From Actinomycetota bacterium (GTDB taxonomy: Bacteria; Actinomycetota; Geothermincolia; Geothermincolales; RBG-13-55-18): a DNA stretch of 33,725 bases. Location of the stretch: positions 1 through 33,725 of the forward strand of contig JABLXL010000041.1 in assembly GCA_013178005.1 (NCBI GenBank), in the 5' to 3' direction. Made by a program: the position numbers and the translations under genes. Below the pieces are notes generated by a model that had not been told where the DNA came from, did not search any database, and worked only from the letters and a program-made list of their open reading frames with translations. Shown here piece by piece: positions 1 through 33,571 of this stretch; positions within the stretch are counted from its first letter, which is position 1; the number at the start of each line of letters is the position of its first letter.

Positions 1-127
1 GGTTTTGCTCCTGCGCTTCCTTCAGACTCAACCTCGCGATTGAGCCCTTGCGCTTCGCTAGTCCTTCACCTCCGTCAGGTTGGACAGGGGACTTTCACCC
101 CCGAGCTGCCGGCCATGCCCGGCACAC
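1..127 (-). mobile_element. Group II intron, 5' end (class C type), cut by window edge
   Basis: Read on the minus strand from 127, the sequence starts GTGTGCCGGGCATGG, the 5' end expected for a group II intron. It continues with GGGTGAAAGTCCCC, a GCAAGGG segment and GTCTGAAGGAAGCG followed by GCAAAACC. As I recall it, the Oceanobacillus iheyensis class IIC intron has the same blocks in the same order (domain I). The start lies 8 nt after the stem of the ftsZ terminator, and class IIC introns are known to insert directly behind terminator hairpins. The intron points the same way as ftsZ. The rest, including any reverse transcriptase, lies outside the window. The family call is strong; class C is inferred from the 5' sequence and the insertion site. 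Confidence 0.87.
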
Positions 128-131
128 AATA

Positions 132-155
132 TAAAGGCGGCCCATAGAGCCGCCT
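132..155 (-). terminator. Probable rho-independent terminator of the ftsZ transcript
   Basis: On the minus strand a 7-bp stem (AGGCGGC with GCCGCCT, 7-nt loop) is followed by TTTATATT. It lies about 55 bases beyond the ftsZ stop. The U-tract is short, but the position and the intron just behind it support a terminator. Confidence 0.6.
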
Positions 156-207: not shown

Positions 208-1269
208 CTACTTATTGCGCAGAAAGACCGGGATGTCCAGTTCCTCCGACTCGAAGACCATAGTCTTCTCCGGAGGCGCCTCCGTTTTCACCCCGCGACG
301 ACCGGGTTTGGAGGGCACGGTACCGAACTCGAATCCCGTGGCGATGACCGTCACCTTGAGCTCGTCGCCCAGGGAGTCGTCTATGACCGCGCCGAAGATG
401 ATGTTGGCGTCGGGGTCGGCCACGCTGGCTATGATCTCCGCCGCCTCGTTCACCTCGAACAGCCCCAGGTCCGTGCCCCCCGAGATGTTGAGCAGGATGC
501 CCTTCGCCCCCTCGATGGAGGCTTCCAGCAGTGGGCTCGAGATGGCCGCCCTGGCCGCCTCGGAAGCGCGGTTCTCCCCGCTTCCCACACCAATCCCCAT
601 GAGCGCCGATCCCGCGTTGGACATGATGGTGCGCACGTCCGCGAAGTCCAGGTTGATGAGCCCCGGAACCGTGATGAGGTCGGTGATGCCCTGGACGCCC
701 TGGCGCAGGATGTCATCGGCCATGCGGAAGGCGTTGAGGATGGAGGTCTTCTGCTCGGCCACCTCCAGCAGCCGGTCGTTGGGGATGATGATGAGGGTGT
801 CCACCTTTTCCCTTAACTTATCGATCCCCGCCTCGGCCTGCTGCGCGCGCTTGCGACCCTCGAAGGAGAAGGGGCGCGTCACCACGCCGATGGTCAAAGC
901 CCCCTGCTCCTTCGCGATCTCCGCCACGATGGGTGATGCACCGGTCCCCGTCCCGCCTCCCTTGCCGGCGGTTATGAAGACCATGTCCGCGCCTTTGATG
1001 GATTCGCTGATCGCCTCCTTGTTCTCAAGCGCAGCCTGCTCCCCCACCTCGGGGTTGGAACCCGCTCCCAGCCCCCGGGTGATATTTCCGCCGATGTACA
1101 CCTTTACGTCGGCGTCGGACATCAGGAGGGCCTGTGCGTCGGTGTTGATCGCCACGAACTCCACGCCCTTGAGCCCGGCGTCGATCATACGGTTGATGGC
1201 ATTGGTGCCGCCACCTCCCACGCCGACCACCTTGATCACCGCCAGATAGTTGGTCGCTGTCTCCGGCAT
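208..1269 (-). CDS. ftsZ: Cell division GTPase FtsZ
   Basis: Tubulin-like GTPase that polymerises into the Z-ring at mid-cell and recruits the divisome. Visible features are the N-terminal [13 protein letters not shown] nucleotide-binding loop (residues about 16-28), the tubulin signature GGGTGTG (about 104-110), the synergy loop NLDFADVR (about 206-213) and a C-terminal peptide ending [10 protein letters not shown]. This last part is the conserved docking tail. Length is 353 aa, slightly short because the C-terminal linker is brief. The ATG at 1269 was chosen over an in-frame start at 1323 because AAGGAGG (1278-1284) lies 8 nt upstream and homology begins there. It is the last gene of the dcw cluster and has its own long upstream region. 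No ftsA precedes it, as in Actinomycetota. In many actinobacteria sepF-type genes follow ftsZ; here a terminator and a group II intron follow. Confidence 0.98.
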
Positions 1270-1353
1270 CTCCGGTCCCTCCTTATTCCCGGCCTCTCGA
1301 AAAACCTCGAGGCGCGCTCTCAAAGTCTAAACTCGTAGTTGAGACATTGCCGC

Positions 1354-18995: not shown

Positions 18996-20288
18996 TCAGC
19001 CGCTCAGGGGAAGGCTGTCGATAGGCGCCCCGCCGGCGAGGGCTTTGGCTTTCAGCCACTTCTCCACCAGGTAAGGCTTGAACCACTCGAACTCCTCCGC
19101 CTGGCGCTGCACCAGGTACTCCGCCTCCATGCTGGTCATGTTGCGCGTCCTGATGGCGCTGTCGGCGGTGCGGGCGCAGTAGAGGGGGATAAGGGAGTCG
19201 ATGAGCTCCCGCCGCGACAACTCGCAGTCGAAGTTGTAGGCCACCGCGAAATCGTACACGACCTTCGCCCACAACTTCTCCGGGAAGGTAAATTCTTCCT
19301 CTTTCTCGGACATCCTCGAAAAGGACACCTCCATCATGTTGGCCGGCTCCAGCACGCGCTCCCAGAGCTCCTGGTATCTCTCAAAGCCGCTCTGGAAATG
19401 GTCGATGAGGTTCTCCACGTTTATCTCCATGGCCTCCGGCTCGATGTATCGCGGATCCCCGAAAACGCGCGTGGCCGTCGATCCCTTAACCTGCATCCAC
19501 TTCACCTCGTGAACTCCCATGAGGTAGAAGATGGTGGATGCGACCTGCCTGAACATGGACCCGAGATCACTGCCGGGATCCTTCACGTCGTGTATCTTGA
19601 CCCCCATGGCCGACTGGCATATGCGGAACCCCTCGGTGATGGCGGTGGTGGTCATCCAGATATCGATGCCGAACTTGGCTATATCCGACTTCCACACGTC
19701 CATGTGCGAATACAGCAGGGCCAGGGAGCCGGTGAAGCCGAAGTCGCCCCCGATGGGCTGGCGTATGCGCCTGCCGTAAAGGGCCTGGGTCAGGGGGTAG
19801 GCGAGGCAGTTGGTGATGGTGCCGTCGTATTTGTGCCGTATGTAATAGGGGGCGACGAAGCCGTAGCTGTTTTTCCATACCGGCTCCCCCAGGAGGCGGA
19901 TCCACTCCGGGGTGATGCTGCGGAGGTCGGAGTCAACCACCACGCATATGCGGGCCTTGAGGCGGGAGGCGATCTCGAAAATGGCGTTGAACGCGGAGCC
20001 CTTCCCCGGCAGTCCCTTGTAGGGGGTCACGATCTTCTCAACCTCGGGGGGAACGGGGGTGTCCAGGACCACCCTCACCGTGTCGTCGGTGGAGCCGCCG
20101 TCGGAGTTCACGATCACCGGCTTCAGGCCGGGGAAATACCTCACCATGCCCTCGGCGGCGGCGCGCACCACGTGGGCGATGGTGTCGGCGTTGCGGAAGC
20201 TGGGAATGCCTACCAGGATGTCCGCACAGCCCATCTCCTCGCAGCGGCGGATGACCTCCGGGTCCAGAACGGTGCGCGATTCGCCCAT
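18996..20288 (-). CDS. GT-A glycosyltransferase, glucosylglycerate synthase-like
   Basis: Nucleotide-sugar-dependent transferase. Seen: ADILVGIPSFRNADTIAHVV start, IVNSDGGSTDDT, YKGLPGKGSAFNAIFE, the VVVDSDLRSITPEW metal site (Asp119/Asp121), and APYYIRHKYDGTITNCLAYP followed by GGDFGFTGSLAL. These blocks recall bacterial enzymes that form glucosylglycerate, a compatible solute, from NDP-glucose and glycerate. Length is 430 aa; the last 150 residues are helical and charged. No signal peptide or membrane helix, so cytoplasmic. It follows another glycosyltransferase by 6 bases. Family is solid; substrate is inference. A glycolipid or glycan role is also possible. Confidence 0.8.
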   Translation of the reverse strand: MGESRTVLDPEVIRRCEEMGCADILVGIPSFRNADTIAHVVRAAAEGMVRYFPGLKPVIVNSDGGSTDDTVRVVLDTPVPPEVEKIVTPYKGLPGKGSAFNAIFEIASRLKARICVVVDSDLRSITPEWIRLLGEPVWKNSYGFVAPYYIRHKYDGTITNCLAYPLTQALYGRRIRQPIGGDFGFTGSLALLYSHMDVWKSDIAKFGIDIWMTTTAITEGFRICQSAMGVKIHDVKDPGSDLGSMFRQVASTIFYLMGVHEVKWMQVKGSTATRVFGDPRYIEPEAMEINVENLIDHFQSGFERYQELWERVLEPANMMEVSFSRMSEKEEEFTFPEKLWAKVVYDFAVAYNFDCELSRRELIDSLIPLYCARTADSAIRTRNMTSMEAEYLVQRQAEEFEWFKPYLVEKWLKAKALAGGAPIDSLPLSG

Positions 20289-20294
20289 CAGGGA

Positions 20295-21533
20295 TCAGCC
20301 TCGATCATCGAATGCCCCCTCCACCACCGACCGCAGGCCCGGGATATCCTCCGCCTCGCGCATGAAGTCCTCCCATCCTCGCCGCCATTCCATGTAGTGC
20401 AGGAACGGGTTCTCCGGCATCCATTCCGGGGAGCGCGCCCTAAGGATGTTGTTCATGCACTCCTCGTACCCCCTGGCGTCGCCCTGGGAGAGGTACCGCA
20501 TGGCCATGAGCACGCAGGTGCGGAATATGAGGTCCTCCAGGTCGTCGCGGAGAAATCGCCCGGGGTATGGGTCCAGCTCCTCCACGCCCACCATCCCCGC
20601 CCCTTCATCCGCGGGCTCCTGGAGCCGCAGCTTCTCGCGGCTGTAGATGAACCGGTCCAGGTCCTCCCTGAAGCGGCGCCAGAGAGGAGAGGTCTTGGGG
20701 GGAGGCAGGTGCCTTATCCAGAGGGTGTTGTCGAGCCGGAAATGGTGCCCGAGGAATTTCGCGTTCACCAGGTAGTCTATGTCCTCGCCGCGGGTGACCA
20801 GGGGGTCGAAGGCCACGCGCTTGAAAAGGTCGCGGTGTATGACCATGTTGCCGCCGAACACCCAGGGCGTGCGCTTGAGCCTCCCGCCGCCCTCGATGAT
20901 ATCGAAGGCGCGGTTCATGCGCTCCACCGCCGGCCACTCCGCCATGACCGGATCGCGGTTGGGCGGCACCCGGTAGCTCCCGTCGGGGTTCACGTAATAG
21001 CCGGCCATGCCGAGAACGAGACCGCCTTCCCGCTCCTCGCCGATGTTCTCTTCCACTTTCTCGAGATAATAGGGGTCCTCGTACACCTGGTCGTCGTCGA
21101 AGAGCACCGCCGCCTCCGCTCCAGTCAGGTGGGCCGCTATGAGGCAGAAGTTCCTGATGTTGGAATATCCCCGCAGGGACACGAACCGCGCGTGCCTTTC
21201 TTTTCCTTTTTCTGCCAGTACGCGCCTCAACCCTTCCTCGTGCCCGTGGGTAAGGAGGGCCAGGGGGTAGTACCTCTTGAAGGGCGCCGTTATCCCCTTC
21301 AGCTTCTCGCCCACCTCCGCCTCCAGATCGGGATGGGTGGCCACCCCCAGGACCACCACGCGGAAGTCCCGGTGCCTAAGCAGGCGCACGCTCTCCAGCG
21401 CGCGGGCCAGGGTGCCCTCGCCGTCCAGGGGCGTGGGGTGATCGTAGACGGCGTCTTCCTCGTTGAAGGGCTCGCCCGACCTCCTCCCCCAGTAGGAGGG
21501 TATCACCACGGTGAAACGCTTTTTCCGCCTCAT
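20295..21533 (-). CDS. GT2-like glycosyltransferase, unknown substrate
   Basis: GT-A fold transferase. Seen: RFTVVIPSYWGRRSG at the N-terminus, a nucleotide-binding region, YSNIRNFCLIAAHLTGAEAAVLFDDDQVYEDPYY with the metal-binding aspartates (146-148), and PWVFGGNMVIHRDLFKRVAFD plus TRGEDIDYLVNAKFLG, the acceptor/ED region. Length is 412 aa; the C-terminal third has no match I recognise. No membrane helix is seen. AAGGAG lies 7 bases before ATG 21533. It is co-transcribed with the next glycosyltransferase, so both may act on one product. Confidence 0.78.
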   Translation of the reverse strand: MRRKKRFTVVIPSYWGRRSGEPFNEEDAVYDHPTPLDGEGTLARALESVRLLRHRDFRVVVLGVATHPDLEAEVGEKLKGITAPFKRYYPLALLTHGHEEGLRRVLAEKGKERHARFVSLRGYSNIRNFCLIAAHLTGAEAAVLFDDDQVYEDPYYLEKVEENIGEEREGGLVLGMAGYYVNPDGSYRVPPNRDPVMAEWPAVERMNRAFDIIEGGGRLKRTPWVFGGNMVIHRDLFKRVAFDPLVTRGEDIDYLVNAKFLGHHFRLDNTLWIRHLPPPKTSPLWRRFREDLDRFIYSREKLRLQEPADEGAGMVGVEELDPYPGRFLRDDLEDLIFRTCVLMAMRYLSQGDARGYEECMNNILRARSPEWMPENPFLHYMEWRRGWEDFMREAEDIPGLRSVVEGAFDDRG

Positions 21534-31471: not shown

Positions 31472-33571
31472 ATGGACGCGGGAACGAACGGCCGCGGAGA
31501 GGATGCCTGGAACTCCGTGCTCAAGGCACAAGGGGAAGAGCGCGAGAAGCGCATAGCGGAGCTCGTCTCCTCCATGTCCCTGGGCGACAAGATACGCGAG
31601 ATGTCGGGGACCACGAACCTCTTCAAGCAGTTGTACATGGTTCTGCATTACAACAAGTTCCCCTTCCTGGCTGGCGGCAACCGGCGCCAGGGCATACCGC
31701 CCATAAGGTTCACCGACGGGCCGCGGGGCGTGGCCCTGGGCAACTCCACCTGTTTCCCCGTCTCCATGGCCAGGGGATCGAGCTGGGACAGGGAGCTGGA
31801 GGAGCGTATCGGGGAGGCCATGGGCGTAGAGGCAAGGTCACAGGGATCGGACTTCTTCGGGGGGGTATGCGTCAACCTCCCGCGCCATCCCGGCTGGGGC
31901 AGGGCGCAGGAGACCTTCGGGGAGGACCCTTACCTCGTGGGGGAGATGGGCGCGGCACTGGTCAGGGGACTGCGCAAACACGTCATGGCGTGCGTGAAGC
32001 ATTTCGCCTGCAACAGCATCGAGGAATCGCGCTTCTATGTCGATGTGCGGGTGGGCGAACGCCCTTTGAGGGAGGTGTATCTTCCCCACTTCAAACGCTG
32101 CCTGGACGCGGGCGCGGCCGCGGTGATGAGCGCGTATAACCGGGTGAACGGAGAGTACTGCGCCCACAACCGTCACCTCCTGCGCGACATCCTCAAGGGC
32201 GAGTGGGGGTTCAAGGGGCCGGTGATGTCGGATTTCCTCTGGGGCACGCGGGACACGGTCAAAGCCGCCCTCGGGGGCTTGGATATCGAGATGCCCTTGC
32301 GCATCCATTTCGGCCGCAAGCTGAAAAAAGCGGTGCGGGACGGAAGGGTTCCCGAATCGCTCATCGACGAATCGGTGACCAGGATCCTTCGCGTCAAGGC
32401 GGCCTACGCCGAGGCGGGAGATCGCGCCCGCTACTCCCGCGAATGCGTGGCGTGCGGGGAACACCGGGCGCTGGCGCTGGAATCCGCGCGTAAATCCATG
32501 GTCTTGCTCAAGAACGAGGGCGGCCTCCTTCCCCTGGATCGAGGCTCCATCAAGAGCCTGGCAGTGATCGGAAAACTGGCGGACATGCCCAATATCGGAG
32601 ACAAGGGAAGCAGCCGGGTCAGGCCTCCCTACGTGATAACGCCCCTGCAAGGCATACGCGACCTGGCGGGAGAGGTAGAGGTGCGATACCACGACGGGTC
32701 CGACCCCGGGCAGGCGGCTGCCGTCGCCGCAGGGTGCGACGCCGCCGTGGTGGTGGTCGGCTTCACGGGTAAAGACGAGGGGGAGTCCATACCTTACATG
32801 AAGGGGGTAGGGGGCGACCGCGAGGACCTCTCCCTGCGCGCCGAGGACGTCTCCCTCATCGCTTCCGTCGCCGGGGCGGTCGAGCGATGCGTGGTGGTGG
32901 TGGAAGCGGGGTCCGCCTTTCTTACCGCGGGGTGGAGGGATAAGGCGGGAGCCATCCTGGTGGCGTGGTACCCGGGCATGGAGGGCGGCAGGGCCCTGGC
33001 CGAGATCGTCTTCGGCGAGGTCAATCCCAGCGGCAAGCTCCCCGTCACCTTTCCCGAAGACAACGGCCAGCTCCCCTATTTCGACAAGCGCGCGCGATCC
33101 ATCGAATACGGGTACTACCACGGTTACCGCCTCTTCGACAAGGAGGGCATGGAGCCCGCCTTCCCCTTCGGCTTCGGGCTCAGCTACACCGAGTTCGTCT
33201 ACTCCAACCTGCGGCTGAGCGCGGGGGTCCTGGAGGATGGCGGCTCCATCACCGTCAAGGCGGACGTGACCAACGAGGGGGAACGTGCCGGAGAGGAGGT
33301 GGCGCAGCTTTACGTGTCCTGCCCCGCCAAGGCGATCGACCGGCCTCTCAAGGAGCTTAAGGGCTTCGCCCGTCTTCGCCTGGAACCCGGGGAGACCGGC
33401 ACGGCGTCCTTTGAGCTCAAGACGGAGGACCTCGCCTACTACGACGAGGAATCCTCCTCCTGGCGCATGGAAGAGGGGTCCTATACCGTCCTCGTGGGCT
33501 CGTCCTCGCGCTCCGGCGACCTGCCTCTCTCCTCTACCTTCACCTTCAGGAAGTCAGGCACCGGATCGTAA
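31472..33571 (+). CDS. Glycoside hydrolase family 3 (beta-glucosidase-like)
   Basis: Retaining glycosidase. Seen: PPIRFTDGPRGVALG, GGVCVNLPRHPGWGRAQETFGEDPYL, CVKHFACNS (KH, 176-177), MSAYNRVNG, VMSDFLWG with nucleophile Asp254, then the C-terminal GH3 domain (LALESARKSMVLLKNEGGLL) and an FnIII-like end (VTNEGERAGEEVAQLYV). Length is 699 aa. No signal peptide, so cytoplasmic, acting on imported sugars. GGGGAGG precedes ATG 31472. Only plus-strand gene in the window. Sugar specificity is not fixed by sequence; beta-glucosidase is the common activity. Confidence 0.95.
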   Translation: MDAGTNGRGEDAWNSVLKAQGEEREKRIAELVSSMSLGDKIREMSGTTNLFKQLYMVLHYNKFPFLAGGNRRQGIPPIRFTDGPRGVALGNSTCFPVSMARGSSWDRELEERIGEAMGVEARSQGSDFFGGVCVNLPRHPGWGRAQETFGEDPYLVGEMGAALVRGLRKHVMACVKHFACNSIEESRFYVDVRVGERPLREVYLPHFKRCLDAGAAAVMSAYNRVNGEYCAHNRHLLRDILKGEWGFKGPVMSDFLWGTRDTVKAALGGLDIEMPLRIHFGRKLKKAVRDGRVPESLIDESVTRILRVKAAYAEAGDRARYSRECVACGEHRALALESARKSMVLLKNEGGLLPLDRGSIKSLAVIGKLADMPNIGDKGSSRVRPPYVITPLQGIRDLAGEVEVRYHDGSDPGQAAAVAAGCDAAVVVVGFTGKDEGESIPYMKGVGGDREDLSLRAEDVSLIASVAGAVERCVVVVEAGSAFLTAGWRDKAGAILVAWYPGMEGGRALAEIVFGEVNPSGKLPVTFPEDNGQLPYFDKRARSIEYGYYHGYRLFDKEGMEPAFPFGFGLSYTEFVYSNLRLSAGVLEDGGSITVKADVTNEGERAGEEVAQLYVSCPAKAIDRPLKELKGFARLRLEPGETGTASFELKTEDLAYYDEESSSWRMEEGSYTVLVGSSSRSGDLPLSSTFTFRKSGTGS

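Follow-up and report, generated by a model that had tools for sequence, protein, structure and literature searches.

A multi-copy class C group II intron at the terminator-like hairpin behind ftsZ in an Actinomycetota genome

The class C group II introns B.h.I1, the O. iheyensis intron and GsI-IIC are inserted behind intrinsic terminator hairpins (PMC4424553, PMC7161350, PMC8919778), a habit of class C introns whose primary papers (PMC1871835, PMC1702495) are cited here through PMC8919778 and PMC7161350. Class C introns lack an endonuclease, and their priming is attributed to the replication fork (PMC4424553, PMC8919778, PMC7161350). The intron that we analysed in the genome of an uncultured Actinomycetota bacterium (G000; 98 contigs, 3.61 Mb) shares with these three systems the insertion behind terminator hairpins, a GUGYG 5' end, and a reverse transcriptase (RT) with a maturase domain and without an endonuclease; the short IBS1-EBS1 pairing plus IBS3 of these systems has candidate counterparts here. 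It differs from them in its host lineage, its copy number (17 or more, the ends being identical between copies), the placement of one copy in a hairpin within an ORF, and an ATG that precedes the 3' splice site by 8 nt. A closer relative occurs in Actinobacteria bacterium SURF_21 (QZKE01000034.1, taken as contig C20 of our genome G012): it is 88% identical in DNA over its length and 84% identical in RT, and it likewise lies behind terminator-like hairpins, but the ftsZ site of that genome is empty and the EBS1 loop reads AAGTG instead of AAGAG. Terminator targeting by class C introns is already published, and the G000 intron is ordinary in kind. Its interest lies in the natural data set that it provides on class C target choice, namely one family with 15 5' junctions, and with 14 insertions for which sister species offer an intron-free counterpart.

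The window, that is the whole stretch of 33,725 nucleotides analysed here, is a complete contig (C36) of this genome, and it begins inside the intron. On the minus strand, the ftsZ gene (208..1272; TIGR00065, 436 bits) is the last gene of the dcw cluster, downstream of ddl, murC, murG, ftsW, murD, murF and murE, as well as mraW. It is followed by a terminator-like hairpin (135..155, minus strand), which comprises a 7-bp stem (155-149/141-135, AGGCGGC/GCCGCCT) and the loop TCTATGG (148-142), and which is kept in the congeners devoid of the intron. The DNA fold of positions 160-128 has an energy of −9.7 kcal/mol, as compared with −2.9 for shuffled sequences (z = −4.9). The hairpin is separated from the intron by a 5' exon tail of 7 nt, TTATATT (128..134, minus strand), the last six bases of which (TATATT) occupy the IBS1 position and form 4 of 6 pairs with the candidate EBS1 AAGAGA. 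The 5' splice site lies between positions 128 and 127, about 80 nt downstream of the ftsZ stop codon. From position 127 on the minus strand the intron reads GTGTGCCGGGCATGG, and up to the window edge GTGTGCCGGGCATGGCC..., thus leaving the contig at position 1. This initial 127-nt segment of the class C group II intron (GTGTGCC...; 1..127, minus strand) recurs without a difference at the 5' end in 14 other copies, and positions 43..1 match the start of the Rfam model RF02001 (group II D1-D4-3) with 30.8 bits, a match that ends at the contig edge. No Rfam match was found in the window at the gathering threshold, because only 127 nt of the intron are present there. The succession of a 7-bp hairpin and an intron start behind ftsZ, as noticed in the initial annotation, was thus confirmed by the stem, the tail, the intron sequence and the fold. 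Elsewhere in the window, the long minus-strand ORFs at 18999-20288, 20298-21533 and 31841-33121 had no Pfam match at 1e-5.

Repetition of the intron across the genome is the reason why the window ends within it. Searching the window end against its own genome yielded 15 intron 5' ends (124-129 nt matching), mostly located at contig ends, and 17 domain V matches with intron 3' ends were found, mostly 56-126 nt from a contig end. The 3' ends set a minimum of 17 insertions. The constant spacing of 127 nt would reflect an assembly k-mer of 127, with contigs ending where the repeated intron begins, and the repeated intron explains where this draft genome breaks. Four copies were assembled through (in contigs C34, C38, C40 and C67), with lengths of 1877-1879 nt (1879 nt in C34). 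The near-identity of the copies is directly seen for the terminal ~127 nt only, the interior being a collapsed consensus. We considered, and rejected, the existence of two intron variants, one with a frameshifted RT: the differences (at intron positions 126-127 and ~1753) are of one base each, and they are regarded as joining artefacts because each lies one k-mer (127) from an intron end. As a separate observation, the flanks of the copy at C38:26525-28404 are not neighbours in the congeners: its 5' flank pairs with the 3' flank of the copy in C64, and its 3' flank with the 5' flank of the copy in C2, which reflects either misassembly or recombination between intron copies.

As for the copy behind ftsZ, only its two ends are seen, its interior being unassembled. 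Hence the ftsZ copy might be a dead, internally deleted relic, with its RT gene gone or broken, which would neither splice nor move by itself. Its weak IBS1 is also in line with this reading, and the genome does contain such a relic from this family, at C11:9094. We nevertheless regard this reading as improbable for two reasons. First, the ends of the ftsZ copy (127 nt and about 126 nt) match those of the other copies at 100% identity, as compared with about 89% for the C11:9094 relic. Second, the contigs break at ftsZ at the same distance as they do for the other copies. The C11:9094 relic itself, which is reduced to about 55 nt from the 5' end and 119 nt from the 3' end, sits behind the end of a tRNA-like gene and a hairpin, and it suggests an older presence of the intron family.

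The anatomy of the intron was read from the C34 copy, which contains, in that order, matches to RF02001 (141 bits) and RF01998 (51 bits), both above gathering, and a domain V-VI match (RF00029, 38.9 bits) just below the gathering threshold of 40; this domain V is present at all 17 3' ends. The termini are constant, with GTGTG at 15/15 5' ends and ...CGAT at 17/17 3' ends, and the first base of the 3' exon is T in 15 of the 17 cases, C in one and A in one. The intron has one RT/maturase ORF of about 469 amino acids, which was found in the four assembled copies and which matches RVT_1 (PF00078), GIIM (PF08388) and TIGR04416. The domain search returned RVT_1 and GIIM only, with no endonuclease (HNH) domain in this protein. 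The best PDB match of the RT is the class C enzyme GsI-IIC RT, with 454 bits over nearly the whole protein length, as compared with 133 bits for LtrA (133-136 bits for LtrA and 6me0), and by these match scores the predicted protein is a class C enzyme. The introns with RTs of the neighbouring bacterial types g6, U1 and U2 also insert behind terminators (PMC8919778), and an intron of such a type, instead of class C proper, would use the same mechanism. Considering both the extent of the match to the GsI-IIC RT and the class C style of the domain I match, this assignment appears very unlikely.

Turning to the choice of targets, the copies are inserted in sense orientation, a few nucleotides behind a hairpin. 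From the reading of the flanks, 14 of the 15 5' junctions are intergenic, behind terminator-like hairpins, and one is at a coding hairpin. A strict test (hairpin score of at least 15, plus at least four T within the last 8 nt) was passed by 13 of the 15 junctions, versus 0.2% of 4000 random positions; the remaining two (C29 and C74) have strong hairpins with fewer T. Regarding the coding hairpin (C51, positions 1-129, and the end of C8), the intron lies in the last codons of an ORF similar to low-molecular-weight tyrosine phosphatases, behind GACATG...CATGTC and a TT that abuts the junction, and the relatives keep an uninterrupted frame. There, splicing would restore the ORF frame, and without splicing the last residues would be replaced.

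The candidate EBS1, AAGAG (intron 182-186), belongs to the domain I loop GCAAGAGA (intron 180-187), which is closed by GCGA/UCGC in the Rfam structure. It is complementary to the T/C-rich 5' exons, with 4-6 of 6 pairs, and the ftsZ site, with 4/6, is among the poorest matches. A blind search of the intron returned other EBS1 candidates, which we rejected as A/G-rich matches inside the ORF; only 182-187 falls in the domain I loop. The T that opens the 3' exon in most copies would serve as IBS3; no EBS3 was located for it in the intron. In the G012 intron, the loop is GCAAGTGA (AAGTG) and the site is TTGCTT, with a G at −4. As judged from the bases, loop and G would fit an EBS1-IBS1 pairing, this being one instance that carries no statistic.

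The initial annotation had proposed a comparison with empty sites in relatives and a search for domain V. The intron was searched in the congeners G001 and G002 and found in neither; among other relatives, it occurs in G012 (88% identity) and as fragments in G015 (80-92%). Both intron-free congeners have an exact empty ftsZ site. In G001 it reads GCCGCCTTTGTTTT followed directly by TGAAAGGACGG, and the filled site of G000 reads GCCGCCTTTATATT, intron, TGAGAGGAAGG; over a longer stretch, ...GGGCCGCCTTTGTTTT TGAAAGGACGG... in G001 corresponds to ...GGGCCGCCTTTATATT, intron, TGAGAGGAAGG... in G000. Relative to the empty site, zero bases were lost or duplicated. The 3' half, TGAGAGGAAGG, lies on the end of C38, where an intron 3' end with its domain V precedes it and the gene that follows ftsZ in relatives comes after it. 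The outcome named as refuting in the initial annotation, a missing domain V, was thus not what was seen, and we conclude that the intron bridges the adjacent contigs C36 and C38. An assembly chimera, in which an intron end would be wrongly joined to the ftsZ flank, is suggested by the collapsed state of the repeat and by at least one assembled copy (in C38) with flanks not syntenic to relatives, but it is scarcely credible given that the intron starts exactly where the congeners run continuously from hairpin to gene and that the other half of the congener sequence lies behind the intron 3' end on C38. Overall, 14 insertions could be paired by synteny with an empty counterpart, both flanks of each falling at a single locus in one or both of the intron-free congeners G001 and G002. 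Just beyond several other sites the intergenic sequence is too diverged for base-exact alignment, and the pairing there was made via flanking genes. Site C25 has no unique empty site in the relatives, since the gene upstream of it has many matching places there.

The proposal that a class C group II intron sits on the ftsZ terminator therefore holds, on the evidence of the RNA domains, the RT class, the multi-copy targeting of terminators and the two exact empty sites. We are almost certain that the element is a class C intron retroelement of 1877-1879 nt, present in sense at 17 or more sites behind GC-rich, T-tailed hairpins (mostly intrinsic terminators), that of ftsZ included. By analogy with what is published on class C introns, the RT/maturase and the spliced intron RNA would together recognise the hairpin DNA, in addition to a short IBS1-EBS1 pairing (T-rich exon with the AAGAG loop of domain I) and an IBS3 T. 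The intron RNA would then reverse-splice into the target and be copied to cDNA, with priming probably at the replication fork because the RT lacks an endonuclease domain. Splicing, reverse splicing, cDNA priming, present activity and readthrough are steps that we infer. Terminator-inserted introns have been argued to be seldom transcribed (PMC8919778), which weakens the earlier idea that expression of the intron is coupled to that of ftsZ.

The insertion site had also been described as a harmless landing place, a view that the downstream gene does not support. In the relatives, the gene order is ftsZ, hairpin and a TIGR03960 B12-binding radical SAM gene. In G000 the TIGR03960 gene is on the same strand, and its probable native start, a TTG as in G001, lies 22 nt beyond the insertion. 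Unless the intron splices, some 1.9 kb of DNA now stand between this gene and its former source of transcription. The presence of a mobile intron between ftsZ and its downstream neighbour makes effects on expression testable at this site. The ATG in the intron 3' end on the end of C38, which follows a GAGGG and precedes the splice site by 8 nt, shares its reading frame with the TIGR03960 gene; about one ATG in three would do so by chance, and the agreement by itself means little. It is conceivable, if doubtful, that the intron ATG supplies the genes behind it with a translation start (at ftsZ, where the leader of the TIGR03960 gene is displaced), and that recombination between the copies, as perhaps at the exchanged flanks on C38, rearranges the chromosome.
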